Below are positions 594 through 33,190 of a DNA stretch of 33,701 bases, one piece after another; position 1 is the first letter of the stretch, and every line of letters starts with the position of its first letter. The position numbers and the translations under genes were made by a program. Source of the stretch: Martelella mediterranea (GTDB taxonomy: Bacteria > Pseudomonadota > Alphaproteobacteria > Rhizobiales > Rhizobiaceae); assembly GCF_021021415.1 (NCBI RefSeq), contig NZ_JAINWJ010000063.1, forward strand, positions 1 through 33,701. The letters are read 5' to 3'. Below the pieces are notes generated by a model that had not been told where the DNA came from, did not search any database, and saw nothing but the letters and a program-made list of their open reading frames with translations.

Positions 594-1454
594 TCACACA
601 CCGCACATGCCTTCGCATTCATTGCCCCACAGATCGAGCTGGCCGTGATCGGCGGCGGTGGAGAGGTCCGCCCGGTCGAGCGGGACCGCCTGGCGGTGGA
701 GATAGACCTCGCCGCGCACACCGCGCAGGCCGGTGCGGATCATCCGATCCACCTGCACGGCGTCGGCCCAGGCCTCAGCGTCCTCGTCGCGCATCGCGCG
801 CCACATGGCGTCCGAGTGGAAGGGACAGCCGACGCAACTGCTCTTGGGCGGTTCGGGATAGCCATGGCGCTGGAGCCAGGCCAGGCAGTCCTGCCGGCTC
901 ATGTGCCGTTCGACCAGCGGCCATCGGTTGACCTGCCAGCATTCGAAGGACGGCTTCATCCGCAGCACCTCGTCGGCCGAGATGCCGATCCATTGCTCGA
1001 CCACTGCGTGATCGGGCGAGCGCCGTCGTGTCAGGCCGGCGAGTTCGCGTACCTTCCGGCGGATCGGGACGATCTTGTATTCCTTCGTGCATTGCCGCCG
1101 GATCATGCCGATCTGTGCCTTGCCGCGCTGTTCGGCCCGGGTGAACGCCGGAATCGACGCCCACCTGCCGCCCTGGGTGGCTCTGGCGAGATCGTCGCGG
1201 ATATTTCCGGCGGAGACGATGTGGACCGGAAACGGTAGTACGTTGGGTGACATGAGCCAGTCGAGATGCTCGTAGACCGCCCGTGGCTCCCAGCCGGTAT
1301 CGGCGAAGATTGCGCAATCGGGCATCGGGCCGACGATGCCGTGCGCCGCCATCAGCGCCAGCGTGGTGGACTGCACGCCGGCGCCGAGGCTGAGGATCCG
1401 CAGACGGATGCGCGGATCGTCGGTCGCGGGAAAGAAGGGAGACGGCGCGTTCAT
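594..1454 (-). CDS. PAPS reductase-like (adenine nucleotide alpha-hydrolase fold) protein
   Basis: This 286-residue protein belongs to the N-type ATP pyrophosphatase/PAPS-reductase superfamily. Near residues 20-30 it has the modified nucleotide-binding loop 'LSLGAGVQSTTLALMA', followed by 'CAIFADTGWEP'. A Cys cluster, 'KSSCVGCPFHSD', lies near residue 205. Relatives are common on phages, plasmids and integrative elements, where the substrate is generally unknown. The related DndC protein acts in DNA phosphorothioation, but no dnd partners are present, so that role is not supported. The start overlaps the ardC stop by four bases (ATGA), so the two genes are translationally coupled. Fold assignment is good; the reaction is unknown. 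Confidence 0.75.
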   Translation of the reverse strand: MNAPSPFFPATDDPRIRLRILSLGAGVQSTTLALMAAHGIVGPMPDCAIFADTGWEPRAVYEHLDWLMSPNVLPFPVHIVSAGNIRDDLARATQGGRWASIPAFTRAEQRGKAQIGMIRRQCTKEYKIVPIRRKVRELAGLTRRRSPDHAVVEQWIGISADEVLRMKPSFECWQVNRWPLVERHMSRQDCLAWLQRHGYPEPPKSSCVGCPFHSDAMWRAMRDEDAEAWADAVQVDRMIRTGLRGVRGEVYLHRQAVPLDRADLSTAADHGQLDLWGNECEGMCGV

Positions 1455-2404
1455 GACGCCGACTCCAGCTCCACAGGTCGCGGCTCGGTGTCCTCCTCGG
1501 GCGCGAAGGCGAGAAGCCAGTCGGCGGCCTTGCCCGCCTGGCTGGCGGCACGGACGATGGCGCGGTCGTCCTCGCGCAGCACCTCAAGCCAGGAGGCGAT
1601 GTAATCGGCGTGCCGAACGGTCGGGGCGATGCCGAGTGCGGCACAGCAGAAGGCCGCATTGATTTCGGCGATGAGCTCTTCGAAGGCGTATTTCTTCGAG
1701 CCGAACGAGCCCGAGAAATCACGCCCCAGACGCGAGACATGGCCTGTCGCGTGACCCATCTCGTGCAGCGTGGTGCGGTGCCAATTGATGGGTTCGAAAT
1801 AGGCCTGCGGCGGCGGCACCTGCACATAGTCATGGGCGGGCACGTAGAATGCCCGGTTGCCGCCGATGCGGAAGTCGATGCCGGTGGCGGCGATCAGTGC
1901 CTCGACACGCGGTTCGATCAGACCCGTCGGCACCGGCGGTGCGGCGGTCGCGAGATCGTCGGGCAGGTTCTCGCACTGGTCGGTGTTGAAGACGGTGAAG
2001 CGCTTCAGGAACGGGATCGCCTGGGCGTCCTTGCCGGTCTCGCGCGCCCGGCGCTTCTCGTCCTCCGGCACGAAGCGGTCGGCATAGACGACGGTGGTGC
2101 CGCGCTCGCCCTTGCGAACATTGCCGCCAAGCGACAGCGCCTGTCGGAAGGTCAGCCAGCTCTGGCCGGAAAAGCCGCGTTCAATAACAGCGCCCCAGAG
2201 GAGCAGGACGTTGATGCCCGAATACTGACGATCGGTGGAGGCGTTCTTCGGGAGGCCAAGGGGCGCCTTCGCCGCCGCCGTTCCCCAAGGCTGGACCCAG
2301 GGCACACGGCCGGCCTCCAGCTCGGCGATGATCTTGTCGGTGATTACGGAATAGAGGTTGGTCCGGTCGCGCCGGGCACCGGATTTGCGGTTCTGTCTGG
2401 ACAT
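1451..2404 (-). CDS. ardC: ArdC-like antirestriction protein with zincin domain
   Basis: The 317-residue product has the two-part ArdC layout. The N-terminal ssDNA-binding domain (DUF1738 type, residues about 15-130) includes 'GRVPWVQPWG' and 'NVRKGERGTTVVYADRF'. The C-terminal zinc-metallopeptidase-like domain has 'HEMGHATGH' near residue 215, supplying the HExxH-type ligands, and 'EELIAEINAAF' about 25 residues later with the third acidic ligand. ArdC proteins protect incoming plasmid DNA from host restriction during conjugative entry. The gene is followed by the coupled PAPS-reductase-like gene and preceded by a structured leader that matches the one before the ParB-like gene. Length and motifs look intact, so the protein is probably functional. 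It marks this side of the window as mobile-element backbone. Confidence 0.85.
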   Translation of the reverse strand: MSRQNRKSGARRDRTNLYSVITDKIIAELEAGRVPWVQPWGTAAAKAPLGLPKNASTDRQYSGINVLLLWGAVIERGFSGQSWLTFRQALSLGGNVRKGERGTTVVYADRFVPEDEKRRARETGKDAQAIPFLKRFTVFNTDQCENLPDDLATAAPPVPTGLIEPRVEALIAATGIDFRIGGNRAFYVPAHDYVQVPPPQAYFEPINWHRTTLHEMGHATGHVSRLGRDFSGSFGSKKYAFEELIAEINAAFCCAALGIAPTVRHADYIASWLEVLREDDRAIVRAASQAGKAADWLLAFAPEEDTEPRPVELESAS

Positions 2405-2414
2405 CGCGGTTCTC

Positions 2415-2460
2415 CGCGACGGGCGCCGGAGGCCTCTCCTCCGGTCCTCGTCCCGTCACG
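2415..2460 (-). promoter_or_regulatory. Structured 5' leader of ardC (copy 2 of 2)
   Basis: This copy has the same 46-nt architecture as the leader at 421-466: an identical outer 9-bp stem, a 7-nt unpaired strand, a 7-bp inner hairpin, an identical AGAGG loop and a 2-nt spacer. The inner stem here is CCGGAGG / CCUCCGG. Two A-U pairs of the other copy are replaced by two G-C pairs, so pairing is kept although the sequence changed. The GGAG ribosome-binding site again overlaps the base of the outer stem, 7 nt before the ATG at 2404. Confidence 0.65.
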
Positions 2461-2475
2461 GCAAACCGGTCCGCA

Positions 2476-2827
2476 CTCTCACTTTTATGGGCCCCCTCCG
2501 AGTCAAGAGGGCACGATTAGGAATTTGGGACGCCCCGGCCAGGCGCCCTCCCTGCAATCTTGAATGCGGCACTCGGTCCCGAGATGTCCGTGGCAAGGGC
2601 GTGGTTCGCAAGAGCCTATCACCGGCTCGACTTTTATCCGGTCCGGCATTCCGGCCAACTCCGGTGCCGCAACCCCAATCCCGTTTGCTGCGGGTGTTGC
2701 CCTTCGAGGGACGGGACCCTTCTCTACGAACGGCATCTTTCAGCCCAGTGAGAGTTCGGTCACACATCCGCCCGGCATCCCCGGCGGTCGCGAGCCGCGC
2801 GGGAATTCGATATGTTGCCGTGGCCGC
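2476..2827. other. Non-coding stretch between ardC leader and IS110 transposase
   Basis: I see no convincing gene here; the open frames are short, lack ribosome-binding sites and read as low-complexity Arg/Pro/Gly-rich shadows. The stretch should contain the promoter of ardC and the right (3') end of the IS110 element. I could not place the element boundary, because IS110-family elements often lack clear terminal repeats and target duplications. Several GC-rich short inverted repeats occur, for example around 2641-2670, but none is distinctive. Confidence 0.5.
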
Positions 2828-4009
2828 TCAGGTCACGATGGCACCACGCGGAACCATGCCCGTCGTCGCGTAACGCCACAGAGCGATCAGCAGCTTGCGA
2901 GCGAGCGCAACGACCATGATCCTTCGCATCCGTCCCGTCGCGCCCTCGGTGCGCCTGCGATGCCACCGCGCCAACTCGCTGTCGGGCTGCCAGAACAGCC
3001 AACGCCAGCTCATCTGGATCATGTGAGCCCGCAGCAGTGGCGGCCCCGCCTTGGTGATGCCCTGGTCGCGTGACACCGAGCCGCTGGCCCAAGGCGCCGG
3101 CGCAAGCCCGCTCCAGCCGCCAATCTCGCGACGGTTGCGGAACTCGCGCCAGAATGCCTCCCGCGCCAGGATCGTGGCATCGTTCATCCCGATCCCCTTC
3201 AGCCGGTTCAGCGTCACGATCATCGAGGCGTCTTGCGCTGGTTCAGCGGCCGTATCAGTCTGCTGGCTGCGGTCCCGGACAATGGCGTCGCGTTCGGCCT
3301 CCACCTGTGCGATCTGCCGTATCACCAGCGCCAGGCGCTCCAGTTCGCGCGTGATCTCCCGCTTCAGGCAGGGTCCGAGAGGCCGACCGTCTCCAGTCAC
3401 GAGTGCATCCAGGCGTGTCACCGCATCACGGGCACGGGGATCGAAATCCATGATCCCCTGCGTTTTCAGCAGGCCCTTGATCCGGTTCCCGTGCGCCGTT
3501 CTCTCCTTCACCAGGCGCTGGCGTTCCCGCAATCCGCGGCGCACATCGTCCTGTTCCACAGTCGGCACACGAACCTCGCTCAGCACCTGCCGTTCGCCGC
3601 GCGCCCAAGCCATCAATGCACGAACCATCCCCCGCGCATCGATCCGATCCGTCTTCGCACGTTTGGCCCGGCGGTCGACCAGCAAGCTCGCCGGATCAAT
3701 CACCACGACACGGATGCCAAGCGCAGTGAGGCGACGATAGAGCCAGAATCCTTCATATCCGGCCTCGTAGCAGATGACGACGGCCGGCGCACCGAGCTCT
3801 GCTGCGGCCAGCTTTGCTCGCGCCCGATCGATCAGCGTCAGCAGAGCATCCACATCGCCGCAGGCCATCGCATGCAGCGCGATCTTGTCTGCCAGTGACA
3901 CCTGAATACCAACTACCCACTTCGACCGGCTCATCTCCACCGACACAAAAATATCGCCGCAAGCCGGTACATCTTCGATTTTCACTACAACTTCACTATC
4001 CTCGAGCAT
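2828..4009 (-). CDS. IS110-family transposase (DEDD/RuvC-like with Tnp domain)
   Basis: The transposase has about 393 residues, typical for the family. The N-terminal RuvC-like DEDD domain is readable in order: 'FVSVEMSRSKW' (a Glu stands where many members have Asp), 'VVICYEAGYEGFWLYRRL', then 'AKTDRIDARGMV' with the two later Asp residues. A helical middle part follows. The C-terminal Tnp_20-type domain carries 'RLKGIGMNDATIL' and 'GGWSGLAPAPWASGSVSRDQG', which includes the serine-rich catalytic segment. The ATG at 4009 is preferred because AGAAAGGA lies just before it; an in-frame ATG at 4024 is an alternative. The gene is intact. In this family the transposase works with an element-encoded bridge RNA that pairs with target and donor DNA. 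Confidence 0.92.
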   Translation of the reverse strand: MLEDSEVVVKIEDVPACGDIFVSVEMSRSKWVVGIQVSLADKIALHAMACGDVDALLTLIDRARAKLAAAELGAPAVVICYEAGYEGFWLYRRLTALGIRVVVIDPASLLVDRRAKRAKTDRIDARGMVRALMAWARGERQVLSEVRVPTVEQDDVRRGLRERQRLVKERTAHGNRIKGLLKTQGIMDFDPRARDAVTRLDALVTGDGRPLGPCLKREITRELERLALVIRQIAQVEAERDAIVRDRSQQTDTAAEPAQDASMIVTLNRLKGIGMNDATILAREAFWREFRNRREIGGWSGLAPAPWASGSVSRDQGITKAGPPLLRAHMIQMSWRWLFWQPDSELARWHRRRTEGATGRMRRIMVVALARKLLIALWRYATTGMVPRGAIVT

Positions 4010-4046
4010 CGTCCTTTCTCCCATCTCGGTTCAACTCGTCGAACCG
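2828..4046 (-). mobile_element. IS110-family insertion sequence (outer ends not resolved)
   Basis: The span covers the intact transposase gene and an upstream inverted repeat, CGGTTC (4027-4032) and GAACCG (4041-4046), separated by 8 nt. The true ends lie somewhere within about 2476-2827 and 4047-4181. No obvious terminal inverted repeats or target duplication were found, as expected for the family. IS110 elements encode a bridge RNA in a non-coding end; about 350 nt downstream and 150 nt upstream of the gene are available for one. The insertion is intergenic and breaks no recognisable gene. Confidence 0.5.
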
Positions 4047-4181: not shown

Positions 4182-7100
4182 TCAGCTGCTTGCGATCACC
4201 TTCAGCCGCATGGCGCGCGTCTCAAGGAGATAGGTCTCCACGCTGGCCAGCAGATGCAGTCCCTCTTCGGTGACCGCGGCGCGCGATAGGCCAGGTTGAA
4301 CGATGCGCACATCGAATTCGTAGCGATAGTCCTGCCAGCTCGCTTTCAGCTTCTTGAGGAAGGCGGCTGTTCCCTGTTCGAAGCGGGAAGTCTGGCCCTT
4401 CTCGAGGCGCAACTTCTCCCGTTTGAGCATATGAATGAACATACGATTGGGACGATCGCGCCAGCGGGCGGATTTCTGGGCCTGCCCGCACACTTCGTAG
4501 AGATCCTTGACGCGCGCGCCAGGTGCGTCGGAACTGGAATATTTGCAATGGTAAAGCGTCAACTGCACGAGACCTTCAGTCACTCGAAGCGTGACGACGT
4601 CCGCGATCTCACCGGCGCCGTCATCGTCGAAGATGAGGTCATAGGTGTCGCCCTCTGCGAGCAATGTCTCGATGACGCGCCGCTGCACGGAGTCGACCCG
4701 CTTTTCAGGTCCCTGCGCCTCGGCGCGGATATTGGTCTTCGACCAATCCCAGGCCTCGATCCGGTCGACGGGATAGGGTTCAACCACGACGCCTTCAGGC
4801 AGAGCATAGAGGTGGCTGTAGATCAGCAGTGAGCCATCCCCAAAATCGATCTGTGGGGAATCTTCGCCGAAGGATTCCGACAGCGGTTTCACCTTGCCGC
4901 TGACCTTGATGGTTGTTTTCGGACCAGAGCGCTGCGGATAGCGAGCGCCACCTTCGGCAAACACGATTTCGAATTCGGCGACATGGGTGTCGCTGCGCAC
5001 CGTGAAGCGCAATGGACCCGTGCGTTCATGATCCAGCAGTTCGATGTCGCATTCGGCGAAGGCTACGGCTTCGTCGCCGAAACTGATTTCGATCCGGTCC
5101 TCGATTTGCGTCAACAGCGATTCCGGCCAGTGGATCGCGACCGGAGGCACCTGCGGGCGTTCGCTGATCTGGCGAGGCCGCATCGCGCTCTTGAAGACGC
5201 CATCGGTGGTGATCCCCGGATCGTTGACGGCCTTGCCGATATCCGCGCACCATTCGACCCAGTCAGTCAGATCGCGAACCCGCGAAATCGACCAGAACTT
5301 GCCTTTGGCCGAACAGCCACGAGAGGCGGGAACGCCGTCGAGGAAACCGGTGGCGAACACGTTGTTCTTGATGCGCGACTGGGACTTCGCCGTGTCGAGT
5401 CCGTCGGCGACATCGACACCCATATACATGGAGTAGCGGACACCGCGTCCCTGATGGTGCGTCAGGCCAAGATTGCGCAGGATCAGGCGATTGAACCCAT
5501 GCAGGCTGCGGAAGACCTCCTCGCCCTCGACCCGGCGCGTTGCCTCACCGCAGACCGCCTTGGCCAATCGGTCATACGGTCCCTTGATCGAGCTGCTGAT
5601 ATAGAGGAGCTGACTATCGGGATCCCAATGCATCATGTGCAGGTCCCAGGTGACATTGGTCGCGTGCTGGGCCGTGGTCCAGCCGGCCTGCTCTTCGGAC
5701 CGGGTGACGAAGATGGCGACACGCTGGTGTGGGTTGACCTTCATGCCGAGATAGACGCCGGGACTATACAAGTCCTCGGCCCGCAAAGGCTCCCAACCAT
5801 CGCAATTGGTGCGATAGACGACCGCGTTCATCTTCGGTTCGAGCGTCTGCAGCGGAATGTCGCTCAAGTCACCGACAAAGCCCTTGAACATCTCGGCACG
5901 GCGGATCTGCCGGTCGATTTTCGCGGTGCTGAGTGCCTCGACCAGCGCGTTCCAGTCGGCATCCTCCGCATAGAGCTTGGCCAGCGAACGATCAATGTCG
6001 TCAATGCCGGTATTGGCGATGACGGTGGCGTCGCCGAGGCGTGGATCCTGGCGGGTGAAGCGGCCGACAAACTGGATGGTGACAGCGATGCTCTTGTGCG
6101 GATCGTGCAGGGCGGCGATCTTCAGTTCCGGCAGATCGAAACCTTCTCCGAGCATGTCCACGCAGACGATGATCCGGCTCTCGAAGCGCCGCAGAGCGGC
6201 AAGGTTTGAACGGCGTTCACGGATCGACTGCTGGCTATGGACGATGACCGGACGAAGTTCGGGGTACATCTCGCTGTAAAGCTGGTGGAGGGCTCTGGCG
6301 CGGTCGATAGTCTGGCAGCGCGCCATGGCGAGATGGTTGAGGCCGGCGTCCAGATCACCCTGGAGGACTTCGCCGAGCTTCTCCGCGATCGCGAGATCGG
6401 CGTCCGCCTGATCGAGCCCGAAGACAGCCTCGAAGCGGATCGGCTTGAAATAGCCTTCGGCCTGCGCCTTCTTGAGCGGATAGGTGTAGATGAACTCGCC
6501 GTCGACGCGCCGGCCGTCCTCACGGAATGGTGTGGCGGTGAACTGGACGATCGGGAGCGCCGGCTCGCGATCGGCAAAGAGGCCCCGAAAGCGCGCCCAG
6601 GTCGGGGCGCCGATGTGATGAGCCTCGTCGATAAACAGCGCCGCGGCACGAGCTGCCATCCGCTCCTGGACCGCTGCTTCGGCGCGGCCGGCGATCTGCA
6701 TTGTGGTGACGATGACATTGGCGCTGTCGAAGATCTCATCCACCTCGGTTACCGTCGTCGGAATGTGCGAAAGGCGCATCACTACGGGAAATGCTGCCTT
6801 GTCTTCCAGGCATTGCTGTTGCCTCAGCACGCCGAAGGTCTCGAACTTGCCCGCGATCTGCTCTCGCAGAGCGTCCGTCGGCACCACGACCAGTAGCCTC
6901 TCGAAGCGCTGGTGGGCGTTGAGCGCGAGCATGGTTTCCGTCTTGCCGGTGCCCGTCGGCATGACGATGGTGGCCGGATCGCTCGATCGCGTCGCATGGG
7001 CCAAAGCCGCGTGCAACGCGCCGATTTGAGGACGTCGCAGACCGGGCTGGGCTGGCTGCTCGTTTTCGGCTGCTCGTCCCTCCCGGAGATGAAAGGCGCC

Positions 7101-7520
7101 CGACCAGGATGCCGAAACCGCTGCCAGCCGTTCGACCCGCGCTTGGCCGCTCAACGTGTCGATGCGGATGGGCAACGGGGCCATCCACCGGCCTTCGCCG
7201 GCATCGAGTGCTTCGACGATCTGCGCCGGCTCACTCGCGCCGGGGACCAGCAGAATGAGATCCGCCTCCAGCGACGTGGCGGTCTTCGCGTTGATAATCT
7301 TCAGTGTCTCGCCGGACGGCAGCGTGGTTTCATGACCCGTCACACGGCGGATCGAAAAGGGTCGCAGCCGGCAGCGCACGCGCAGCGGCGGAACCGCCAA
7401 CTGGCGTATCGGGCTTCCCAGGACCTTGCCCTCGATCGCAAGCCGAGCCGGCAGCAGCAGTTCGACCTCGGGATTGAAGAGATCGTCCTGGGCGGGCTCG
7501 GTGCGCTTGCGGGAGGCCAT
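4182..7520 (-). CDS. Large SF2 DEAD/DEAH-box helicase, last gene of helicase-nuclease operon
   Basis: The 1112-residue protein has a full SF2 helicase core: Walker A 'MPTGTGKTETML' near residue 187, 'ALFIDEAHHIG' (DEAH) near 298, 'FTATPFREDGRR' (motif III) near 328 and 'QFVGRFTRQ' (motif VI) near 485. The core resembles type III restriction/UvrB-like translocases. About 160 residues precede it, and a long C-terminal region of some 600 residues follows. Near residues 970-995 'GEIADVV' and 'LTLYHCKYS' recall the D...(E/Q)xK arrangement of restriction-type nucleases, with His-Cys-Lys at the usual acidic position; a nuclease-like or degenerate nuclease fold is a guess. The start follows the UvrD-like stop by 14 nt and has GAGGA 7 nt upstream. 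It probably unwinds or translocates on DNA in a defence complex with the two upstream products. Confidence 0.8.
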   Translation of the reverse strand: MASRKRTEPAQDDLFNPEVELLLPARLAIEGKVLGSPIRQLAVPPLRVRCRLRPFSIRRVTGHETTLPSGETLKIINAKTATSLEADLILLVPGASEPAQIVEALDAGEGRWMAPLPIRIDTLSGQARVERLAAVSASWSGAFHLREGRAAENEQPAQPGLRRPQIGALHAALAHATRSSDPATIVMPTGTGKTETMLALNAHQRFERLLVVVPTDALREQIAGKFETFGVLRQQQCLEDKAAFPVVMRLSHIPTTVTEVDEIFDSANVIVTTMQIAGRAEAAVQERMAARAAALFIDEAHHIGAPTWARFRGLFADREPALPIVQFTATPFREDGRRVDGEFIYTYPLKKAQAEGYFKPIRFEAVFGLDQADADLAIAEKLGEVLQGDLDAGLNHLAMARCQTIDRARALHQLYSEMYPELRPVIVHSQQSIRERRSNLAALRRFESRIIVCVDMLGEGFDLPELKIAALHDPHKSIAVTIQFVGRFTRQDPRLGDATVIANTGIDDIDRSLAKLYAEDADWNALVEALSTAKIDRQIRRAEMFKGFVGDLSDIPLQTLEPKMNAVVYRTNCDGWEPLRAEDLYSPGVYLGMKVNPHQRVAIFVTRSEEQAGWTTAQHATNVTWDLHMMHWDPDSQLLYISSSIKGPYDRLAKAVCGEATRRVEGEEVFRSLHGFNRLILRNLGLTHHQGRGVRYSMYMGVDVADGLDTAKSQSRIKNNVFATGFLDGVPASRGCSAKGKFWSISRVRDLTDWVEWCADIGKAVNDPGITTDGVFKSAMRPRQISERPQVPPVAIHWPESLLTQIEDRIEISFGDEAVAFAECDIELLDHERTGPLRFTVRSDTHVAEFEIVFAEGGARYPQRSGPKTTIKVSGKVKPLSESFGEDSPQIDFGDGSLLIYSHLYALPEGVVVEPYPVDRIEAWDWSKTNIRAEAQGPEKRVDSVQRRVIETLLAEGDTYDLIFDDDGAGEIADVVTLRVTEGLVQLTLYHCKYSSSDAPGARVKDLYEVCGQAQKSARWRDRPNRMFIHMLKREKLRLEKGQTSRFEQGTAAFLKKLKASWQDYRYEFDVRIVQPGLSRAAVTEEGLHLLASVETYLLETRAMRLKVIASS

Positions 7521-7534
7521 GGTCGCGTCCTCGG

Positions 7535-10500
7535 CTACGCCGCGATCGTCTGGGGAGAAGGCGGGACGGTGATCACCGTCCCGTTCGTCATCAGAACGAT
7601 CAGGCCCCGTTCGGCGCCGGTCATGTCGAGATAGGCACGCACCTGAGCCCGATAGTGATCAAGTGTCTCCTGGGTGGGATTCACATCGCTCTTCCAGTCG
7701 ATCACGACGGCTGGCCGACCTTCCGGATCAACCGTAAGTGCGTCCGCGATGCCCGCCGTCGCAACCAGCTCGGCATTCTCCAGCTGAAGGGCATAGACCG
7801 GAAATTCAGCGAGCAATGAGGGACGCAAGGCCGCAACCTCCGACAAGGCCAGCGTTCGCGTCACGCAACCGGCCAGTTCCTCAGGCGAAAGCCCGTTCGC
7901 CGGATCGGAGGCGGGCTCCTCGCCGAGCGCACGGATGAGGTCAGTGGCACGCGCGGTGAGCGCCTCGCCGGCCTCGTCGCATTCCCCTGTCAGGACTTCT
8001 TCCATGAGCTTGTGAAGGATCAGTCCACGCTCGCGCCCGCCCTGGACGGAGGCGGGCGCTTCTGAGTCTGGCGCCGGAGCATCAGCCGAACCGGCCCAGA
8101 TGTCCGGCTCTTCTTCCTGAAGCACCGAACCGATCGCCGTCTCGTCGCGGCTCGGCGCAAGCCAGGTCAGGTGCATCTGCCTTTCGGCAATCGCATTTGC
8201 CTCAGTGGCGAAACTCTCCCGTGTCTGGTCGTTTGCGGCATCGCCTGTCACCGCGATCGGGTCGAGCGGCAGATGCGACACGTCGACGTGAGGGAGATCT
8301 GTCAGGGACAGGTCCACCAGGCCGATCCAGGCTGATTTCGAAGGCGTTACGTCGAGCCGCGGCAAGATCAAGAGTTCCCGGGCGCGGGTTGCCGCGACAT
8401 ACCAGAGCCGGACCCGCTCGCGATCCAGTTCATCCTTCTCTGCCTGCCGCGCCGCGTCGTAACCGGACGGAGGGACACCCAGAACCGGGCAGTAGAAGGT
8501 ATCAGTCTGGCGATCGGTCACGGCGCTGTCGGGCGCTATTACCCCTGTCATGGTGTTGATGGGGATGACGACCGGCCATTCAAGACCTTTCGCGGCATGC
8601 ATCGTGTAGAGGGCAACGGCTTCTTCCTGCGCATCAGGCCGGCCTTCCACCGCGCGGGCCTCATCTGCCCATGCCGCCGTCATTGCCTCGGAAAAGGCCC
8701 GCAGACCCCGTACCGCATAGCTGACGGCGAGGCTGAGATAGAGATCGACATTGGCAAGCGCTCGTTCTGCCTGACCGCGATGCCGCTCCAGAAGAACCGG
8801 GCGTACCCGAAGGACGTCGACGGCCTGCGAAAGAAGATCGTGTGGTGTCGTGCTGTTGGCGCGTTTCTGAAGCGCTTGCAGCCGCTCGATCACATTCCGC
8901 GCCAGCGGATGAACTATTGCCGCGGGATCGATGCCGAGGTCGAGCCGCGGGATCCGGTCGGGTTCTTCTTCCGAACGCGGGAGCGCCCAGGCGATGTCCA
9001 GGAGTTCCTCTTCGCTGAGCCCGACAAGCGGGCCCCGCAGTAGTGCGCCGAGCGCCAGCGTATCACGACGATCGGCGAGAATCCGCGTGATCGCGATAAG
9101 GTCCTGCACTTCCTGCCGGCGAAACAGACCTTTGCCGGCCTGGGTTGCGACCGGGATGCCACGACGCTCAAGGGCTTCTTCATAACGCCAGAGTTCCGCG
9201 CCGGTCGGGGCGAGCAAAGCGATGTCGCCCGGCTGGCACGGCCGTTGTGCACCGGCTTTGCGATCCTGGACCGGATGACTGCCGATCAAGCGTGCGCAAA
9301 GTTCAGCCACCGCTTCGGCTTCGGCGTCGCGTCGCTGCTCGGCGCTGGCCTTGCCGTTCTCGTCAGCGACCGCGATATCGATCGCCGCGACGCAGACGCC
9401 GTCTTCCGGATCGTCGTGGAAGGGATCGAGCGCGGTGAAGCCGGGCTGGCCATCAGCCGATAGAACAGCCTCGAACCGTTGGTTGACGAAAGTGAGGATC
9501 GAGGCACAGGAACGGAAATTGGTCGAGATCGAGACGAGGCCGTCCGCGTCCAGCGTCGAGAAGGCGGTGCGCGCCTGGACATAAGCGCCGACATCCGCGC
9601 CGCGGAAGCGATAGATTGCCTGCTTGGGGTCACCGACCAAGAAGAGTGCGCCCGGCCGAATCCGGAAGCGCGTCCAGTCCTGCGGATCATCACCGGGATC
9701 GCCGCATAGACGCCAGAAGATTTCGGCCTGGAGCGGGTCGGTATCCTGAAACTCGTCGACCAAGACCTTTGAATACCTCTGGCCGAGCGCCTGTCGCACA
9801 GTTTCATGGTCGCGCAACAGGTCACGTGCGGCGTAGATGAGATCGTCGAAATCGAGTTGGGCGCTGGCGCGCTTGTGCTCACGATAGCGCGCAAGGATTG
9901 TGCGTGCTTCGTCGATCAATATCGTAAGGACCTGGCCGGATACCGCCTGGAGCAGTGCGGTCCACGCGGCACAGCACGCCTCATACAGGCCGCTGGCCGT
10001 ATCGTTCAGCCTGTCGCCGTCTGCCTTGGACAGTCCTGCCTGCTTTGCCGCTGCCGCCCATTTGCCCTTCTTGCGGTAGGCGTAAAAGCTGCCCGTCCCG
10101 GTCGTAAGGTCGGGATGCGGGCGTGCAACCAGCAACCCGACGAGCCCGGCGGGTGTGGAACCATCTGCAACTGATGGAAGGGCAGCCGCCATTTCAGAAA
10201 AGCGCGCGGCGAAGACCTCCGTTTCCGGCTCATCGACGCCGGCGCCTTGCATAAAGGCCGAAAGTTCGTCGGCCGCCTGCCGGAAGGCTTGCAGGTGACC
10301 TGCAAAGGGCATCGCTTCCGGTGCGACCAGATTCCTCGACCGCCGGAGGGCTTCGGCGATCTTGTGCATCAGAGCGACGGTCTCTCCCGGGTTATGCAGC
10401 ACCATCTCGGCGAGGACACCGCCCTGATCGCCAGACAATCGTTCGCGCAGCCAGCCATCGACGATTTCGAGGAAGTTGAGATCGGCCTGGTTGCGGTCGA

Positions 10501-10930
10501 TGACCGCTGCGCCCGGATCGATATCCGCTTCCGCCGGGTAGGGCTTGATCAATCGCTGGCAGAAGCCGTGGATGGTCGAACAGGTGATTTCGTCGATCGC
10601 CGTGCTGGCCGACATCAGATTCTCGCGCTGTGCCGCAGACAGTCCCTCCGGCAGGCCGGCGCGGAGCTCCGGTGCGATATGGCCGGCGGCGAGATCTTCG
10701 ACGAAATCCCGAACGCGCAGGAGGAGCTCGCTGGCCGCCAGTTCGGTAAACGTGACCGCGGCGACGGAACTTGGCGCGACACCCTGCGCCAGCATGACAG
10801 CGATCCTGCCGGCCATCACGGCGGTCTTGCCCGATCCCGCGCCGGCCTCAACCAGAATGGATCGGTCGTGACGGCTGATCGCGTCATGCCGGGCGCCATC
10901 ATCATTCAGAACTTTCACGCTGCTCATCAT
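7535..10930 (-). CDS. UvrD/AddA-like helicase-nuclease
   Basis: The 1131-residue protein is an SF1A helicase with a C-terminal RecB-type nuclease, similar in layout to AddA. Visible in order: Walker A 'AGAGSGKT' (29-36), 'STIHGFCQRLI', 'DFDDLIYAARDLL', Walker B 'VLVDEFQDTDPLQ' near 390, 'LFLVGDPKQAIYRFRGADV', 'ISTNFRS' near 470, 'LYTMHAAKGLEWPVV' and 'LWYVAATRAREL'. The nuclease shows 'GIADALTV', 'VVIDWKSD' near 1077 and 'YRAQVRAYL' (Q-x3-Y), so the catalytic D, DxK and helix motif are all present. The start overlaps the AddB-like stop by four bases (ATGA). With its neighbour it forms an AddAB-like pair, but its setting next to BREX argues for defence rather than housekeeping recombination. 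Confidence 0.85.
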   Translation of the reverse strand: MMSSVKVLNDDGARHDAISRHDRSILVEAGAGSGKTAVMAGRIAVMLAQGVAPSSVAAVTFTELAASELLLRVRDFVEDLAAGHIAPELRAGLPEGLSAAQRENLMSASTAIDEITCSTIHGFCQRLIKPYPAEADIDPGAAVIDRNQADLNFLEIVDGWLRERLSGDQGGVLAEMVLHNPGETVALMHKIAEALRRSRNLVAPEAMPFAGHLQAFRQAADELSAFMQGAGVDEPETEVFAARFSEMAAALPSVADGSTPAGLVGLLVARPHPDLTTGTGSFYAYRKKGKWAAAAKQAGLSKADGDRLNDTASGLYEACCAAWTALLQAVSGQVLTILIDEARTILARYREHKRASAQLDFDDLIYAARDLLRDHETVRQALGQRYSKVLVDEFQDTDPLQAEIFWRLCGDPGDDPQDWTRFRIRPGALFLVGDPKQAIYRFRGADVGAYVQARTAFSTLDADGLVSISTNFRSCASILTFVNQRFEAVLSADGQPGFTALDPFHDDPEDGVCVAAIDIAVADENGKASAEQRRDAEAEAVAELCARLIGSHPVQDRKAGAQRPCQPGDIALLAPTGAELWRYEEALERRGIPVATQAGKGLFRRQEVQDLIAITRILADRRDTLALGALLRGPLVGLSEEELLDIAWALPRSEEEPDRIPRLDLGIDPAAIVHPLARNVIERLQALQKRANSTTPHDLLSQAVDVLRVRPVLLERHRGQAERALANVDLYLSLAVSYAVRGLRAFSEAMTAAWADEARAVEGRPDAQEEAVALYTMHAAKGLEWPVVIPINTMTGVIAPDSAVTDRQTDTFYCPVLGVPPSGYDAARQAEKDELDRERVRLWYVAATRARELLILPRLDVTPSKSAWIGLVDLSLTDLPHVDVSHLPLDPIAVTGDAANDQTRESFATEANAIAERQMHLTWLAPSRDETAIGSVLQEEEPDIWAGSADAPAPDSEAPASVQGGRERGLILHKLMEEVLTGECDEAGEALTARATDLIRALGEEPASDPANGLSPEELAGCVTRTLALSEVAALRPSLLAEFPVYALQLENAELVATAGIADALTVDPEGRPAVVIDWKSDVNPTQETLDHYRAQVRAYLDMTGAERGLIVLMTNGTVITVPPSPQTIAA
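7562..7583. repeat. Perfect 22-bp palindrome near the 3' end of the UvrD-like gene
   Basis: The half-site CGGGACGGTGA is followed directly by its exact reverse complement. It lies in the last codons of the UvrD-like gene (encoding TVITVP), about 40 bases before the start of the SF2 helicase gene on the minus strand. As RNA it would fold into a strong hairpin between the two genes; as DNA it could bind a dimeric protein. By chance about 0.01 such palindromes would be expected in a window of this size under equal base use. Confidence 0.6.
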
Positions 10931-13581
10931 TCCGCCTCCCAGATCGGCGCGACCTCGCTGAGCCGCTCGGTCGAGGCGGCTTGTTTGCGTTTGCAGTAGG
11001 TGGCGCCTGCGTTTGCCGGCAGGGCAAAGGCGAGATCGTCATAGTCGCTTCCCGTATCCGGCCCGGGCAGTGCCGCGCCGCTGGCCAATGCGGTTCTCGC
11101 CGCCCGCAGGTATGCCTTGATTTCCGCCAGGACGATGTCCGGCTCGTCGAGCTGGAGATCAAGCGGTTCACGCGGATAGAGCAGCGAGGCGCTGATCGCG
11201 ATGTGGTCGCCCAGGAGCGCCTTGACGGCGAAGGCATAAAGGCAACGCTGAAGCTCGCGGCCGCCGTTCACGCGTATGTCGCCTTTGGGCGGCTTGCCGG
11301 TCTTGTAGTCGCGCACGAGTGCCCGGCTGCCGTCATCAGCGATGTCGAGCCGGTCGATATAGCCGGCAATGTGAAATCCGGTGTCGGGGATGATCACCGG
11401 CACACTGGCGTCCCAGGGCAGTGCCGCCTCCGACTTGGGCTCGGACCCGCCGAACGGGACTTCGCCAAAGGATCGGCTGCCCGGCAAATGATCATTGCCA
11501 TAGGCAAGCGCCTGTCCGGCAAGAGCGCGCGCGTCCCCGAGCGTGCGGCCCCAGATAACAGCGGGCGGAACGGGCCGCTCGCTTTCCCACTCGGCAGCCA
11601 CCGCACCAGCGGCTTCGTCTACCGCAGCCTGAATGGCAGCCACGTCGGCCGACGCCAGGCCGCCCGTCGCTTCGAGGTTTCGCAGGGCGCGGTCGAGCAC
11701 CAGATGGATGAGGTCGCCGGTTTGCAGGGCGTCAAGCACGAGCGGCTCGGCACTGCCTTGCGGGGATTTCCAACCGAGAGCATAGCGCCAGAGGAAATTG
11801 AGGGGGCTGCGCAGCAGTGTCTTGAGCGAGCTCGCCGACTGGGTCCGCTGGAGGATCGCGAGAACCAAAGGATGATCGGACCTGACCAGGCCATCATGAG
11901 CTGTCACATCGGCCATGCGCCAATCGCGCCAGCAGGAACGCGCACTCAATGCCTGGGGATCGGCGGCGAATTCCTGCGGCCGCGCCATCAGCCGGTCGGT
12001 TTCACTGAAGGCATGGGCGGGAACGGCGTTGCGCCGCAGATAGGCTTCCTCGTCATAGGTGGCGAGGAGGGGGCTGCGACCCAAGAGCCGGCCGTCGCTG
12101 TCGCGTCGGGCGCGGGAGAAGACGACGTCGCTGCCCGTAGTGGCGAGGATCGTATCAAAGTCACGGCGATCTGCCAGACTGACGGGAAGCGGGTCGAGTT
12201 CGTCCGTTGGAATGATGTGGTCCGGGATCAGCCGATCTTCGGCGATCCCGCGTGGCCAGCGGGAGGAATTGAGACCGATCAGCCGAGCGAAGCGTCGCGG
12301 CGACGCGGCGAGGGCGCTGGCCGGCATCCAGGCCACGCAGACGGAGGCCTCGAGCCCGTCATCCAGTTTCAGTGATTCCAGCGTGCTGTCGATCGCGCCG
12401 GCGGGCCCTGCCAGTAGGGCTTTGCGCCAGATCGACAATGCCCGGCCCTTGAGGAAGGCTTCACCGATCTCCTGTGCCGCGTCCGGTCCCTTTGCCAGCA
12501 GATCGACCGCAGCACGCAGCACCGGGGCGTGATCCATGCCGTCGGGCCAGTCGTCCGGCGCGAGGCGCGCCAGCAGTTGGTTCCAGGCGGACGGCGTTGA
12601 CAGGGGTGCATCGCTTGGAAGGACGCGCATCCAGCCATCGGGAAGGGAAGCCAGAGGTGCAGAATCGCGGCACAGGGCGGCGAGACGGCGCAAGCGCGAC
12701 TGCGAAAGCCCGCGCACGACGATGTCGGCGAGTGCCGCTGCCGCTTGTCCGTCACGTGTGGTGACGGCCGGGACGCCATGAACGAAATGAAAATCGATAC
12801 TGGCATCGGCGCGCAGCGCGAGAAAGTGATCGTCGTAGTCGGCCGGCGACGCGGTGGCGATGGCAATGTCGGCGGGCGATACGCCCGACGCGAGCAGCGA
12901 CCGAACCCAACGCAGTGTCTCGACTGCCTCATGGTAAGCGGTCGCGGCGCTGACGGATCGAATGGCCGGCGCCTCGGCGTCACCCCGAGCGACAGCAACG
13001 CCGCTTTCCTTGAGCCAGGCCGGGACAGGGCGAGGACCTGACGTCCATTGCATGGGGATGTGCTCGGCGAGCGCCTTCAGCAGAGGCCGCCAGCAGGGAG
13101 ACAGTTCGGTCAGTCCGACGATTTCCATCGAGCCGAATATGGCGGGCGCATGGGTGATCTGGCTGATGGCTGCTGCGACAATATCGACCGGACGCATCAT
13201 TCCGCCCGGAAGTTCGGTGAGAACAGCGGCCTCCAGGCGAGCGATGGCTTCAAGTCTTGGATGATCAGCTGACCGGGAGGCAAGATCGATACCGGCCCGC
13301 CACGCCTTGTGCAGTGTATCGGCGGCCGCGCCGATCATGCCCGGCAGCATCTTGATATCTTCCAGTTCGCCCATCGGTGTTTCAGGGAGGGCCGTCTGGA
13401 TCGCCGCGCGCAGGCTTTCTTCGTCGATTGCGCGGGCGAAGCCGCCCGCGAGCCGCACCGCGGCTTGTTCGAACGACATGATCTGGAGGCCATGTTGACC
13501 GCCGCGGGCCGCCGCAAGGCGGGCCTCCCGCATTGCCAGGCGACCATACACGACGAGGGTGGATCGCTTCGCGGCCGTCAT
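10927..13581 (-). CDS. AddB-like PD-(D/E)XK nuclease without helicase P-loop
   Basis: The 884-residue product matches the layout of AddB/RecC-like subunits. The N-terminal region begins 'STLVVYGRLAMREA', where a P-loop would sit in AddB, but no GxGKT is present. The C-terminal nuclease contains 'IAGYIDRLDIADDG' near residue 743, 'LVRDYKTGKPP' near 757 and 'ELQRCLYAFAV' (Q-x3-Y), so the catalytic set is complete. Classical AddB has four Cys residues binding an Fe-S cluster around the nuclease. Here the usual 'CP-x-x-F' position reads 'SPLNFLWRYALGW' and only one late Cys is seen, so the cluster is probably absent. GGGGGA precedes the start at good spacing. The gene starts 18 bases after the small-protein stop and overlaps the UvrD-like gene by four bases. 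Confidence 0.8.
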   Translation of the reverse strand: MTAAKRSTLVVYGRLAMREARLAAARGGQHGLQIMSFEQAAVRLAGGFARAIDEESLRAAIQTALPETPMGELEDIKMLPGMIGAAADTLHKAWRAGIDLASRSADHPRLEAIARLEAAVLTELPGGMMRPVDIVAAAISQITHAPAIFGSMEIVGLTELSPCWRPLLKALAEHIPMQWTSGPRPVPAWLKESGVAVARGDAEAPAIRSVSAATAYHEAVETLRWVRSLLASGVSPADIAIATASPADYDDHFLALRADASIDFHFVHGVPAVTTRDGQAAAALADIVVRGLSQSRLRRLAALCRDSAPLASLPDGWMRVLPSDAPLSTPSAWNQLLARLAPDDWPDGMDHAPVLRAAVDLLAKGPDAAQEIGEAFLKGRALSIWRKALLAGPAGAIDSTLESLKLDDGLEASVCVAWMPASALAASPRRFARLIGLNSSRWPRGIAEDRLIPDHIIPTDELDPLPVSLADRRDFDTILATTGSDVVFSRARRDSDGRLLGRSPLLATYDEEAYLRRNAVPAHAFSETDRLMARPQEFAADPQALSARSCWRDWRMADVTAHDGLVRSDHPLVLAILQRTQSASSLKTLLRSPLNFLWRYALGWKSPQGSAEPLVLDALQTGDLIHLVLDRALRNLEATGGLASADVAAIQAAVDEAAGAVAAEWESERPVPPAVIWGRTLGDARALAGQALAYGNDHLPGSRSFGEVPFGGSEPKSEAALPWDASVPVIIPDTGFHIAGYIDRLDIADDGSRALVRDYKTGKPPKGDIRVNGGRELQRCLYAFAVKALLGDHIAISASLLYPREPLDLQLDEPDIVLAEIKAYLRAARTALASGAALPGPDTGSDYDDLAFALPANAGATYCKRKQAASTERLSEVAPIWEAE

Positions 13582-13599
13582 TGCTTCCCCCTTTCCGGG

Positions 13600-13743
13600 T
13601 TACTTCTTGTTCGGACGCTGGGTCAGCGCCGACGCTGCCGCGCTCTTGGCGGCCTTGCTGCTTTTCGGGTCCCGCAAGACCATTGCGGCTGCACTCGCCG
13701 CCTTCTTGCTGGTTACCTCACGATTCGTACGACGCTTCGGCAT
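13600..13743 (-). CDS. Small basic conserved protein, first gene of helicase-nuclease operon
   Basis: This 47-residue, Lys/Arg/Ala-rich protein begins 'MPKRRTNREVTSKKAAS' and contains 'VLRDPKSSKAAKSAA'. AAGGAG lies 7 nt before the ATG, a strong ribosome-binding site, and the stop is 18 nt before the AddB-like gene. From memory, short proteins of this pattern are widespread in proteobacteria as uncharacterised products, but I cannot name a family. No membrane segment, Cys or enzyme motif is visible. Its leading position suggests a regulatory or accessory role for the helicase-nuclease proteins, for example a DNA-binding or inhibitory partner. A longer frame upstream of this ATG exists, but it reads across the divergent control region and is unlikely to be used. 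Confidence 0.65.
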   Translation of the reverse strand: MPKRRTNREVTSKKAASAAAMVLRDPKSSKAAKSAAASALTQRPNKK

Positions 13744-13778: not shown

Positions 13779-13807
13779 TTGACGATCGTTCAAGATGGGA
13801 ATAATAG
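13779..13807 (+). promoter_or_regulatory. Candidate promoter of the BREX operon
   Basis: TTGACG (13779-13784) and TAATAG (13802-13807) are separated by 17 nt. The -35 box is good and the -10 box poor, so the call is tentative. Transcription would start near 13814, about 60 nt before brxR and just upstream of the inverted repeat at 13819-13852, where a bound repressor could block it. Confidence 0.35.
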
Positions 13808-13833
13808 TTATACGGATTGATGGGATATGTCCA
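13807..13833 (-). promoter_or_regulatory. Candidate promoter of the helicase-nuclease operon
   Basis: On the minus strand TGGACA (13833-13828) and TATAAC (13812-13807) are separated by 15 nt, shorter than ideal. The boxes match well. The -35 box lies inside the inverted repeat at 13819-13852, and the -10 box touches the last base of the candidate BREX -10 on the other strand. This would give a leader of about 55 nt before the small-protein gene. Confidence 0.3.
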
Positions 13834-13852
13834 TATACTTTTTATCCCCATC
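13819..13852. promoter_or_regulatory. Inverted repeat, candidate BrxR operator
   Basis: The outer arms are GATGGGATA (13819-13827) and TATCCCCATC (13843-13852), complementary apart from one inserted base. An inner repeat, ATATG and CATAT with 2 nt between them, spans 13825-13836. It lies between the two divergent operons, 21 bases upstream of brxR. BrxR-type WYL regulators are known to bind inverted repeats upstream of their own gene, so this is a plausible autoregulatory site. Because it overlaps the minus-strand -35 candidate, it could also control the divergent operon. Confidence 0.5.
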
Positions 13853-13873
13853 GTGGAATCGAAGGTAGGCGGC

Positions 13874-14797
13874 ATGAAAGAAGGCGTTACGGCTTTGAAG
13901 TGGGGGGTGGAGCGTCGGCTCGAATTCATCGAGTTTCGATTGTTCTGGGAAGGCGGTGTGAACCGCTCTGACATTATCGAAATGTTCGACGTGTCGGTTC
14001 CGCAGGCGTCAAAAGATCTGACACTGTATCAGGAGAGAGCGCCCCAGAACGCTGTCTACGACAAGAGCGCGAAGCGTTATGTCGCGAGTTCGCAGTTCTC
14101 GCCGATATTCTTGAAGCCGGATCCGGATGGCTACCTGTCGCGCCTAAGGTCTCTGAAGGAAGGCCTCGCCGATCCAGGGGAATCCTGGATATCGAGTCCG
14201 CCGGAGACTGACATCGCGCTGACGCCGCGCCGTGAAGTAGATTCGGATGTGCTGAAAGCGGTCCTGCAAGCTGTGCGCGAGACCCGCTCTATCGAAGTCT
14301 ACTATCAGTCGATGGGAAGCAGGCGAACCGACCCGATGTGGCGGCGGATGACACCTCATGCATTCGGCTATGACAGCTTTCGGTGGCACGTTCGTGGCTA
14401 CTGCCATATTGATGAAAAATATAAGGATTTCCTTCTGCCGCGCATCCTCGGCGTCCGCGACATGGATGTCCCCGGCCCGGGGGGCGATCAGGATACCTTG
14501 TGGAAGAAGACCTTTGATATTGAGATCGGTCCCCATCCCGGACTGACTCCCAGTCAACGCGCGGTCGTCGCGAAAGACTATGGCATGACGAATGATCGTG
14601 CCGTCCTTTCGGTGCGGTATGCGATGCTGTTCTATGTACTCAAGCGGCTAGGCCTGCTCGGAGACGCGAGCCAGCAGAATCCGCGCACCCAGCATATTGT
14701 AGCTCTCAATCCCCACGAGACCGAGCGCGCGCTCCAGCGAGCGGATTTCGAGTTCGGAGAAGTCGAACAGTCTGCCAAGGCGGCTGGAGGCGTTTGA
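13874..14797 (+). CDS. brxR: BrxR-like WYL-domain transcriptional regulator
   Basis: The 307-residue protein has the BrxR three-part layout. The N-terminal winged helix-turn-helix (residues about 13-55) includes 'GGVNRSDIIEMFDVSVPQAS'. The WYL domain (about 130-210) has 'SIEVYYQSMGSRR' and the signature variant 'RWHVRGYC' near 171. A C-terminal WCX-like extension follows. BrxR proteins are DNA-binding repressors located at the head of many BREX loci, and the WYL domain may sense a ligand or nucleic acid. The ATG at 13874 is chosen because AGGTAGG lies just upstream; a longer frame from 13817 would read through the candidate operator. The stop overlaps the brxA start by one base (TGATG), so it leads the BREX operon. 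Confidence 0.85.
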   Translation: MKEGVTALKWGVERRLEFIEFRLFWEGGVNRSDIIEMFDVSVPQASKDLTLYQERAPQNAVYDKSAKRYVASSQFSPIFLKPDPDGYLSRLRSLKEGLADPGESWISSPPETDIALTPRREVDSDVLKAVLQAVRETRSIEVYYQSMGSRRTDPMWRRMTPHAFGYDSFRWHVRGYCHIDEKYKDFLLPRILGVRDMDVPGPGGDQDTLWKKTFDIEIGPHPGLTPSQRAVVAKDYGMTNDRAVLSVRYAMLFYVLKRLGLLGDASQQNPRTQHIVALNPHETERALQRADFEFGEVEQSAKAAGGV

Positions 14798-15414
14798 TGG
14801 ACGGGCTTCAGGAAAAACCCTACTTGATGTCTTTCGGGACTGGCGGTCTCTACATCAACGAGAGCGTCGACATAGCTCGCCTACATGACGACGACGACTG
14901 GGACGCCACGGCGCTTCGTGCGCAAGAGCGCGGGGTGTTCCCAGTTCGCAAAGCCAGCTCTGCGCGCCGGTCCGTTCGAGAGATCGTAAATCGCCTGAAA
15001 CACCTTTCTCCGGAAGGATTGGTGCTACTTGTCGACGGCAATCGGAGCGAACAGGCGGCGCTTCTCTGGCTCGCGACTTGCCGGACCTACAGGTTCATTT
15101 CCGAGTTTGCCGTCGAGGTGCTGGGAGACAGGTTTCTGTCATTGCGGACAGGTCTCTCCTACAGTGATTTTGATGCTTTCTTGTCCGCCAAGGAGGAGTG
15201 GTCTCCAAAGTTGGCAGCGCTGTCTGCTTCCACTCGCGCAAAACTTCGCGCGGTACTGTTCCGACTGATGCGCGAGGCAGAGATCCTGTCGCAGGATGAT
15301 CGGATACTCGGAGCGATGTTGTCGCCGCGCGTGCTGGCCATCATCCACGCCGAGAACCCCGAGGAACTTCGATATTTCCCTGGGGCCGAACGACAGGCGG
15401 GGAGGACAGGATAG
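14797..15414 (+). CDS. brxA: BrxA (DUF1819 family) BREX protein
   Basis: The 205-residue protein matches BrxA/DUF1819: 'YLMSFGTGGLYINESVDIA' near the N-terminus, 'LSPEGLVLLVDGNRSEQAALLW' near residue 70 and 'YRFISEFAVEVL' near 95. BrxA is a small, mainly helical DNA-binding protein of type I BREX; its exact role is not settled. The start is the ATG at 14797, with GGAGG 6 nt upstream and overlapping the brxR stop. A TTG three bases earlier is less likely. The end overlaps the brxB GTG start by one base. The position directly before brxB and brxC is the standard type I order. Confidence 0.9.
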   Translation: MDGLQEKPYLMSFGTGGLYINESVDIARLHDDDDWDATALRAQERGVFPVRKASSARRSVREIVNRLKHLSPEGLVLLVDGNRSEQAALLWLATCRTYRFISEFAVEVLGDRFLSLRTGLSYSDFDAFLSAKEEWSPKLAALSASTRAKLRAVLFRLMREAEILSQDDRILGAMLSPRVLAIIHAENPEELRYFPGAERQAGRTG

Positions 15415-16025
15415 TGGCACGACTGAGCAATATGGCAACCGCGAAGGACCGTTTTGATCACCTCTTCAAGGTTGTCGGGAGCGAGAGATTCCTCAAGAAG
15501 CAGGGACTTGGAAATGAAGTGCCATTCTTCATCTGCCCCTATCCGGCGGAGGAAGCGGTTGGCATGGACATGATGCGTGCCAGTCTCGCTAAGAAACTTG
15601 AGAATCGTGGTGTGCGCGTGTTTGAAATCAATTTCTACGACCTCAGCATCAACCTGCTGCGCGACCGGGGCATCTGGGATGACGTTCTCGCGGCAGAGCC
15701 AAGCATCGGAAAGGACGAACTCAAGGAACTTCTGCAGGGCGTTCTCGATCCGGAAACCCATCTCATTCCGGAGATTCGGGCCCGCCTTGCGGAGCGGCAG
15801 TTTGATGTCCTGTTCCTGTCGGGTGTCGGCGAGGTCTTCCCCTATATACGCTCCCACAACGTGTTGAATAACCTTCAGAGCACCGCCAAGGAGAAGCCGA
15901 CGGTGATGTTCTTTCCAGGAAAATATACGCAAAGCCTGGATACCGGCGCGTCACTCGATTTGTTCGGGATCCTGCATGACGATAAGTACTATCGAGCGTT
16001 CGATATTACGCACTATGAGATTTGA
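15414..16025 (+). CDS. brxB: BrxB (DUF1788 family) BREX protein
   Basis: The 203-residue protein matches BrxB/DUF1788: 'VPFFICPYPAEEAVGMDMM' near residue 40, 'VRVFEINFYDLSI' near 67, 'FDVLFLSGVGEVFPYIRSH' near 135 and 'PTVMFFPGKYTQSLD' near 165. BrxB is required for BREX defence in systems studied by mutation, but its activity is unknown. The GTG start at 15414 sits 8 nt after GGAGG and overlaps the brxA stop (TAGTG); an in-frame ATG at 15432 is an alternative. brxC follows after 7 nt. Confidence 0.9.
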   Translation: MARLSNMATAKDRFDHLFKVVGSERFLKKQGLGNEVPFFICPYPAEEAVGMDMMRASLAKKLENRGVRVFEINFYDLSINLLRDRGIWDDVLAAEPSIGKDELKELLQGVLDPETHLIPEIRARLAERQFDVLFLSGVGEVFPYIRSHNVLNNLQSTAKEKPTVMFFPGKYTQSLDTGASLDLFGILHDDKYYRAFDITHYEI

Positions 16026-16032
16026 GGGGGGC

Positions 16033-24822: not shown

Positions 24823-24824
24823 GC

Positions 24825-27326: not shown

Positions 27327-27337
27327 CGGGGGATCCA

Positions 27338-33188: not shown

Positions 33189-33190
33189 AT

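Follow-up and report, generated by a model that had tools for sequence, protein, structure and literature searches.

Enzymes of the AddAB family load on double-stranded DNA ends, unwind the duplex and cut both strands. Among anti-phage systems, bacteriophage exclusion (BREX) operons can be headed by a WYL-domain regulator, BrxR, which is reported to bind a pseudo-palindrome upstream of BREX (PMC9122589), and WYL regulators are described as co-occurring with many defence systems (PMC9122601). Here we describe a locus of Martelella mediterranea in which genes of both kinds stand back to back. The window (33,701 nucleotides, contig NZ_JAINWJ010000063.1) carries four intact open reading frames (ORFs) on its minus strand at 4182-13743, encoding a 47-residue protein, an AddB-like nuclease, an AddA-like helicase-nuclease and a superfamily 2 (SF2) helicase. 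They run divergently from a WYL gene followed by brxA, brxB, brxC, an AriA-like gene (HEC-02A), HEC-02B, pglX, pglZ and brxL, which bears out a preliminary description of this DNA as four genes on one strand sharing a control region with BREX. That description went on to propose a fixed four-gene defence operon, possibly a destructive arm of BREX. We find instead that the recurrent unit is the AddB-AddA pair, and that it adjoins many different defence systems.

The pair resembles canonical alphaproteobacterial AddAB (TIGR02784) in its AddB-then-AddA order, in an AddB that is a nuclease with an inactive helicase, in an AddA that is both helicase and nuclease, and in the few cysteines of AddB. 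It differs in forming a separate clade, in its score (~275 versus 861 bits), and in being accessory, mobile and coexistent with a canonical pair. TIGR03623, an AddB-like family named 'probable DNA repair protein', is the nearest NCBIfam model of AddB, but the match is weak, lies around the nuclease domain and is far under the cut-off (43.7 versus 299.6 bits). Gabija (GajAB) likewise joins a UvrD helicase to a nuclease in defence islands, and GajB models match AddA with up to 124 bits; however, the pair has no adjacent GajA-type partner and uses two RecB-family nucleases instead of OLD-TOPRIM, there being no GajA-type gene in its operon and the AriA-like gene lying within BREX. Hachiman (HamAB) couples an SF2 helicase to a nuclease, and here both would be in one SF2 chain with a putative C-terminal nuclease. 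Assignment of the SF2 C-terminus to HamA/DUF1837 was rejected, as no Pfam family matched it at an expect value (E) up to 1 and no fold match was significant.

A second AddAB-type pair

The genes of the pair overlap by 4 bp:

10927-13581, minus strand: AddB-like protein, 884 residues, without a helicase domain match, with a C-terminal RecB-family nuclease; nuclease residues from the alignment H626, D743, D746, D758-Y-K760, Q778 and Y782
7535-10930, minus strand: AddA-like SF1 helicase-nuclease, 1131 residues; Walker A at 31-36, DEFQD at 392-396; nuclease residues H973, D1063, D1078-W-K1080, Q1096 and Y1100

AddB contains a PD-(D/E)XK domain (Pfam, 68.1 bits), and AddA contains UvrD N- and C-domains together with a PD-(D/E)XK domain (Pfam). 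This is the AddAB arrangement, in which a helicase-nuclease is encoded together with a nuclease. Both nuclease sites are complete, as the preliminary description had noted: the His, Asp, DxK, Gln and Tyr residues are identical in 100/100 AddB and 83/83 AddA rows (those passing length and stop filters, from 103 loci considered). In one of the 83 AddA rows Thr replaces Ser in Walker A.

The nearest NCBIfam model of AddA is TIGR02784, which it matches with 275.1-276 bits, below the canonical cut-off of 860.75. The same genome also encodes a canonical AddA (1395.6 bits to TIGR02784, 29% identity to the window AddA), and canonical AddA scores above the cut-off in 20 of 26 host genomes, this one included. 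In a tree of 36 proteins, made by a quick method and with long branches, one branch splits 17 pair AddAs from 18 canonical AddAs (Shimodaira-Hasegawa-like approximate likelihood ratio test, 100). This genome has two AddAB-type pairs, the canonical one and, separate from it, that of the window.

Loss of the iron-sulphur (Fe-S) cysteines was rejected as a mark of the family. The AddB-like protein does lack them, having six cysteines (163, 304, 415, 550, 780 and 863); this is nevertheless no distinguishing feature, since the canonical AddB of this genome, with a single cysteine, is equally without Fe-S cysteines.

The earlier view that the system is unnamed was upheld: no model in PADLOC-DB 2.0.0, Pfam or NCBIfam names the AddB-AddA pair. 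The PADLOC search that the preliminary description had recommended gave AddB a sole match (E1-E2, E 0.003, 14.7 bits), which is at chance level and not above noise, and gave AddA generic UvrD models only. No article presenting AddB-AddA as a defence module was found in a search that left subscription papers, non-PMC preprints and supplements outside. The module is real and recurrent and new to the libraries and papers searched; it belongs to a familiar class of enzyme, in what would be a new role.

AddB and AddA as the unit

Among 268 AddB relatives from a scan of genome contigs, the 80 best were retained (L021-L100); most counts below rest on these 80, so distant relatives are under-represented. 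AddA directly follows AddB on the same strand in 78/80 loci, and in the remaining two (L030, L056) the contig edge comes before AddA could begin. AddB matches were also found in 64 plasmid records; 14 of these loci were fetched, and AddA follows AddB in 14/14. The other two genes are optional. An SF2 gene follows the pair in 24/80 loci (with a full-length frame in 21), an intact 47-codon ORF is present in 18/80 (two of them strongly diverged), and the intact ORF is combined with a full-length SF2 gene in 7/80 (L026, L028, L032, L061, L075, L080, L092). The natural unit is the AddB-AddA pair and not four genes. The fixed four-gene operon does not hold: the SF2 and 47-residue genes occur independently of the rest, but AddB and AddA do not occur independently of each other.

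Distribution of the pair is patchy. An AddB-like protein was detected in 9/385 alphaproteobacterial genomes, including the window's own and one broken piece, and in 3/398 genomes drawn from the phylum. Of the plasmid records, 40 were typed as conjugative and 12 as mobilizable, and many AddB loci lie on chromosome-scale contigs (e.g. CP059260.1). No AddB relative was found in the viral contigs searched.

Exchange of partner systems

In the window the partner is a type I BREX, with BrxA, BrxB, BrxC, PglX, PglZ and BrxL all present:

14794-29410, plus strand: type I BREX operon
14794-15414, plus strand: BrxA
15414-16025, plus strand: BrxB
15976-19566, plus strand: BrxC
19563-20738, plus strand: AriA-like protein (HEC-02A), followed by HEC-02B up to 21286
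21286-24822, plus strand: PglX
24825-27326, plus strand: PglZ
27323-29410, plus strand: BrxL

BREX flagged by the window BrxA, BrxB or BrxC adjoins the pair in 10/80 loci, and the partners are varied. PADLOC identified Shango (SngABC; L005), Hma (HmaA and HmaB in L040, HmaC in L079), type III restriction (L060, L042), Zorya (ZorA, ZorD; L033), other kinds of BREX (L064, L097) and DRT1a (L089) as neighbours, together with a weak match to a Lamassu-like SMC protein (L083, 85 bits). L006 carries a set of multi-ubiquitin, ThiF and DUF6527 genes, and the CBASS-like genes of L009 and Gabija-like genes of L010 are named from record annotation only. Partner labels of further loci were assigned by similarity to these representatives. 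A recurrent set, often placed before AddB-AddA, comprises a response regulator, a small protein, a second UvrD-like helicase, multi-ubiquitin, ThiF and DUF6527 (L006, L015, L027, L029, L052, L065, L067, L073).

Proteins of a defence panel occur near 66/80 loci (60/68 when loci shorter than 14 kb are set aside) and in 0/20 chromosomal control stretches of 20 kb; the controls came from three genomes, and the panel was drawn from the same 80 loci, so that the contrast is inflated. On a quick AddB tree of 93 proteins, 64 of them labelled with a partner, at least 18 changes of label are required, compared with a minimum of 6 for 7 labels and a mean of 36.4 for shuffled labels, and 0/200 shuffles were as low as 18. 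Related pairs thus tend to keep their partner, though exchange is frequent.

Cassette borders were compared as DNA in 16 chosen pairs. Between the window (BREX) and L005 (Shango), a match at 94.8% extends from AddB +15 to the end of SF2, and homology between L042 (type III restriction) and L051 (Hma) runs from -21 to 5995, near the AddA stop. When non-independent pairs with 80% identity or more were compared, homology began no more than 40 bp from the AddB start in 153/207 different-partner pairs versus 42/164 same-partner pairs, and it extended beyond -900 in 112/164 same-partner pairs. For the nearest different-partner neighbour of each of 48 loci, 37 alignments begin within these 40 bp. Partner change has been repeated, with sharp borders. 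No site-specific recombination sites were seen at the cassette ends when inspected by eye. A simple scan for CRISPR-like arrays flagged 2/112 loci, both far from AddB; an AddB-like nuclease beside CRISPR-like repeats is mentioned in PMC10910872.

A conserved putative operator and WYL DNA-binding segment

Between the start of the 47-residue gene (13743) and the placed start of the WYL gene (13874) lie 130 bp:

13791-13855, strand not assigned: putative bidirectional WYL operator, an imperfect inverted repeat
13874-14797, plus strand: BrxR-like WYL-domain regulator; start placed at the ATG of MKEGV, the reading frame being open from 13817 upstream

The arms of the inverted repeat (13791-13816 and 13830-13855) are 77% complementary and 13 nucleotides apart, with the operator half-site ATAAAAAGTATATGGACA at 13828-13845 on the minus strand. 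An element of the form ATAAAAA(C/G)TATATGGACA...CCGT(G/A)TAATTATTATTCCCAT was seen across loci with different partners. With at most one mismatch, the core TATATGGACA is present in 50/54 loci that have a WYL gene (exact in 39; lacking in L009, L051, L084 and L100), and the exact core is present in 0/35 loci without one. It occurs 42 times in 4.1 Mb of loci, counting both strands. A longer half-site was searched in 385 genomes with at most one mismatch and gave four occurrences; those of the window's own genome, G066 and G175 lie just before AddB, that of G328 elsewhere. The reversed control pattern likewise gave four, and it is therefore the position of the half-site, not its count, that is telling.

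The pair is divergent from a WYL gene in 49/80 loci. Over 639 different-partner pairs, WYL proteins share 81% identity in the DNA-binding segment versus 53% in the rest; in 307 same-partner pairs the values are 91% and 78%. The WYL proteins of type III restriction and BREX-b loci are 92-98% identical in the DNA-binding segment and 42-43% elsewhere, and that of L100 shows 91% versus 45%. Operator and WYL DNA-binding region are both conserved at the shared control site, a pattern that one shared operator under different sensors would be expected to leave. Retention of the operator across different partners suggests co-control and not mere neighbourhood. As described for BREX regulators (PMC9122589), a WYL gene here heads BREX with an inverted-repeat site upstream; unlike there, the site is located between divergent operons, and loci with BREX, Hma, type III restriction, Zorya and other partners all retain it.

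Proposed role of the pair

We give an even chance to the reading that AddB-AddA forms a helicase-nuclease module of defence islands which is mobile, can be exchanged and is coupled to whatever system adjoins it. Its function would then be defensive. The WYL protein would bind the operator and set the expression of both divergent operons, and the partner (in the window BREX, which includes the nuclease PglZ) would recognise unmarked DNA and leave nicks, cuts or exposed ends. As a member of the AddAB family, the pair should load on double-stranded ends, with AddA unwinding the DNA and both nuclease domains cutting the strands; thorough destruction would then follow from a merely local cut or from stalling of the phage genome. 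The pair would shred what its partner marks or cuts and, being far diverged from chromosomal AddAB, may escape phage blockers of RecBCD/AddAB. PglZ is reported to nick and linearise DNA and to contribute to BREX defence (PMC12205998), Druantia-Zorya synergy to require intact RecBCD (PMC13192584), and several defence systems to monitor RecBCD inhibition (PMC12904381).

Besides the narrow controls and the origin of the panel, several observations weigh against this reading. No panel defence gene was found in 14/80 loci, 8 of which span 14 kb or more. Partner labels cluster on the AddB tree (18 changes versus 36.4), indicating that exchange is recurrent but not free. Homology extends beyond -900 in 9/207 different-partner pairs (e.g. 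L028/L075) and starts between -900 and -151 in 27/207, the compared pairs are non-independent, and alignments may end before AddB without recombination because this region evolves fast. A one-mismatch core occurs in 7/35 loci without a WYL gene, all of them Shango and all inside a gene, and among the nine genomes with AddB, six lack the longer half-site at up to one mismatch and three have it. Finally, BrxC over the cut-off and an AddB-like protein are each found in 9/385 genomes, and together only in the window's own.

A broader proposal, to which we lean somewhat less than evenly, is that unrelated alphaproteobacterial anti-phage systems have a regulatory socket in common, made up of a single WYL DNA-binding specificity and a single bidirectional operator, into which a RecBCD-class cassette fits as common effector. 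If such a socket exists, systems that only mark, nick or stall invading DNA would acquire the means to shred it through the swap of a single cassette, and would be co-regulated with it from the outset. Defence islands would be wired as well as stacked, the nuclease effector being exchangeable between different mechanisms while control is kept, and it would become understandable how BREX-like systems lacking a strong nuclease could, in some hosts, destroy DNA. It would also provide a second, phage-inhibitor-tolerant AddAB for study, and the operator would serve as a sequence tag for finding further wired islands.

Alternative explanations

The pair might instead be an autonomous defence system of two genes, comparable to Gabija or a plasmid-borne RecBCD, which both senses and degrades DNA ends unaided and whose neighbours vary only through island pile-up. 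Two-gene integrity amid very mixed neighbours, the sharp cassette borders, the 14 loci without a panel gene, and the Shango and multi-ubiquitin loci that have neither WYL gene nor operator are all consistent with it; yet we consider it unlikely, as the divergent WYL gene and an operator kept across partners suggest co-control.

It is improbable that the pair is a DNA-repair or maintenance module, mending breaks caused by toxic partners or serving its carrier plasmid. AddAB is a break-repair family (TIGR02784 being the best match) and many of the plasmid records are conjugative or mobilizable, as such a module would predict, but hosts already possess canonical AddAB, many loci lie on chromosome-scale contigs and the neighbours are mostly defence genes.

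That the four genes serve BREX specifically, as its destructive arm, is very improbable and largely refuted by counts, since, despite the same divergent layout with pair and SF2 in L014, L028, L032, L059, L061, L069 and L098, BREX as a fixed partner was rejected by its presence beside the pair in only 10/80 loci, by the same cassette adjoining Shango at 96% identity (L005) and by the absence of an AddB-like protein from 8/9 BrxC genomes. Auxiliary nucleases of BREX are listed in PMC12839542, the main text of which does not mention AddA, AddB, UvrD or RecB.

The SF2 and 47-residue genes

Flanking the pair in the window are two optional genes, SF2 beginning 15 bp after AddA:

4182-7520, minus strand: SF2 helicase, 1112 residues, optional module; RadD/ResIII-like core at residues ~161-505; conserved, possibly PD-(D/E)XK-like C-terminal domain (FDDDxGEIADV..HCKYS..CGQ)
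13600-13743, minus strand: 47-residue basic protein rich in Ala, 22 bp ahead of AddB; optional and repeatedly decayed

The helicase part of SF2 resembles RadD and type III Res proteins (Pfam, NCBIfam). Its C-terminal domain is still conserved at 34-41% identity (motifs FDDDxxGExADV and HCKxS), and a model of this domain is good (predicted local distance difference test (pLDDT) 86.5, predicted template modelling score 0.77); the full-length model was poor (pLDDT 40) and was not used. In the domain model the order of the fold (alpha-beta-beta-beta-alpha) may fit PD-(D/E)XK, and an invariant His stands at the usual E/Q position. Foldseek gave no match to this model at E <= 0.001, the weak matches including Shedu (8ti9, E 0.21) and FokI (2fok, E 0.54, probability 0.54). 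Full-length SF2 relatives (36-44% identity) occur in at least seven viral contigs (L161-L165, L167, L198), in which a search found no AddB relatives; there they stand alone, some adjoining apparent type I restriction parts. The SF2 frame of L025 is broken. Azaca (ZacABC) lies on the 3' side in L006, L040 and L037, and it may be that the SF2 protein and Azaca are alternative 3'-side add-ons.

The 47-residue ORF was found in 21 copies (18 of the 80 loci, the window, L014 and L103). The median ratio of nonsynonymous to synonymous substitution rates is 0.10 (193 pairs), and differences to the window number 128, 94 and 392 at codon positions 1, 2 and 3, a third-position bias. The gene is truly coding but optional. 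Worn remnants are seen in other loci, and in L031 the ORF continues into another frame. A role as an AddB-specific partner was rejected, the family being present also in G040 and G084, both without an AddB match; of these relatives (L115 and L114, respectively), one precedes a tetratricopeptide repeat gene.

Other genes of the window

The AriA-like (HEC-02A) and HEC-02B genes (19563-21286, plus strand) are nested between brxC and pglX, and similar nesting occurs in L028, L059, L061 and L069. BrxL ends in a phospholipase D-like MIT_C domain (Pfam, 137.5 bits), an ending described for some type 1 BREX (PMC12839542). Convergent with brxL is a gene for a RecD-like helicase (29427-33236, minus strand), which scores 1519 bits to the PADLOC candidate PDC-S68. 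At the 3' end of the four-gene operon, an ArdC-like antirestriction gene and an IS110-type transposase adjoin it (1451-4024, minus strand).

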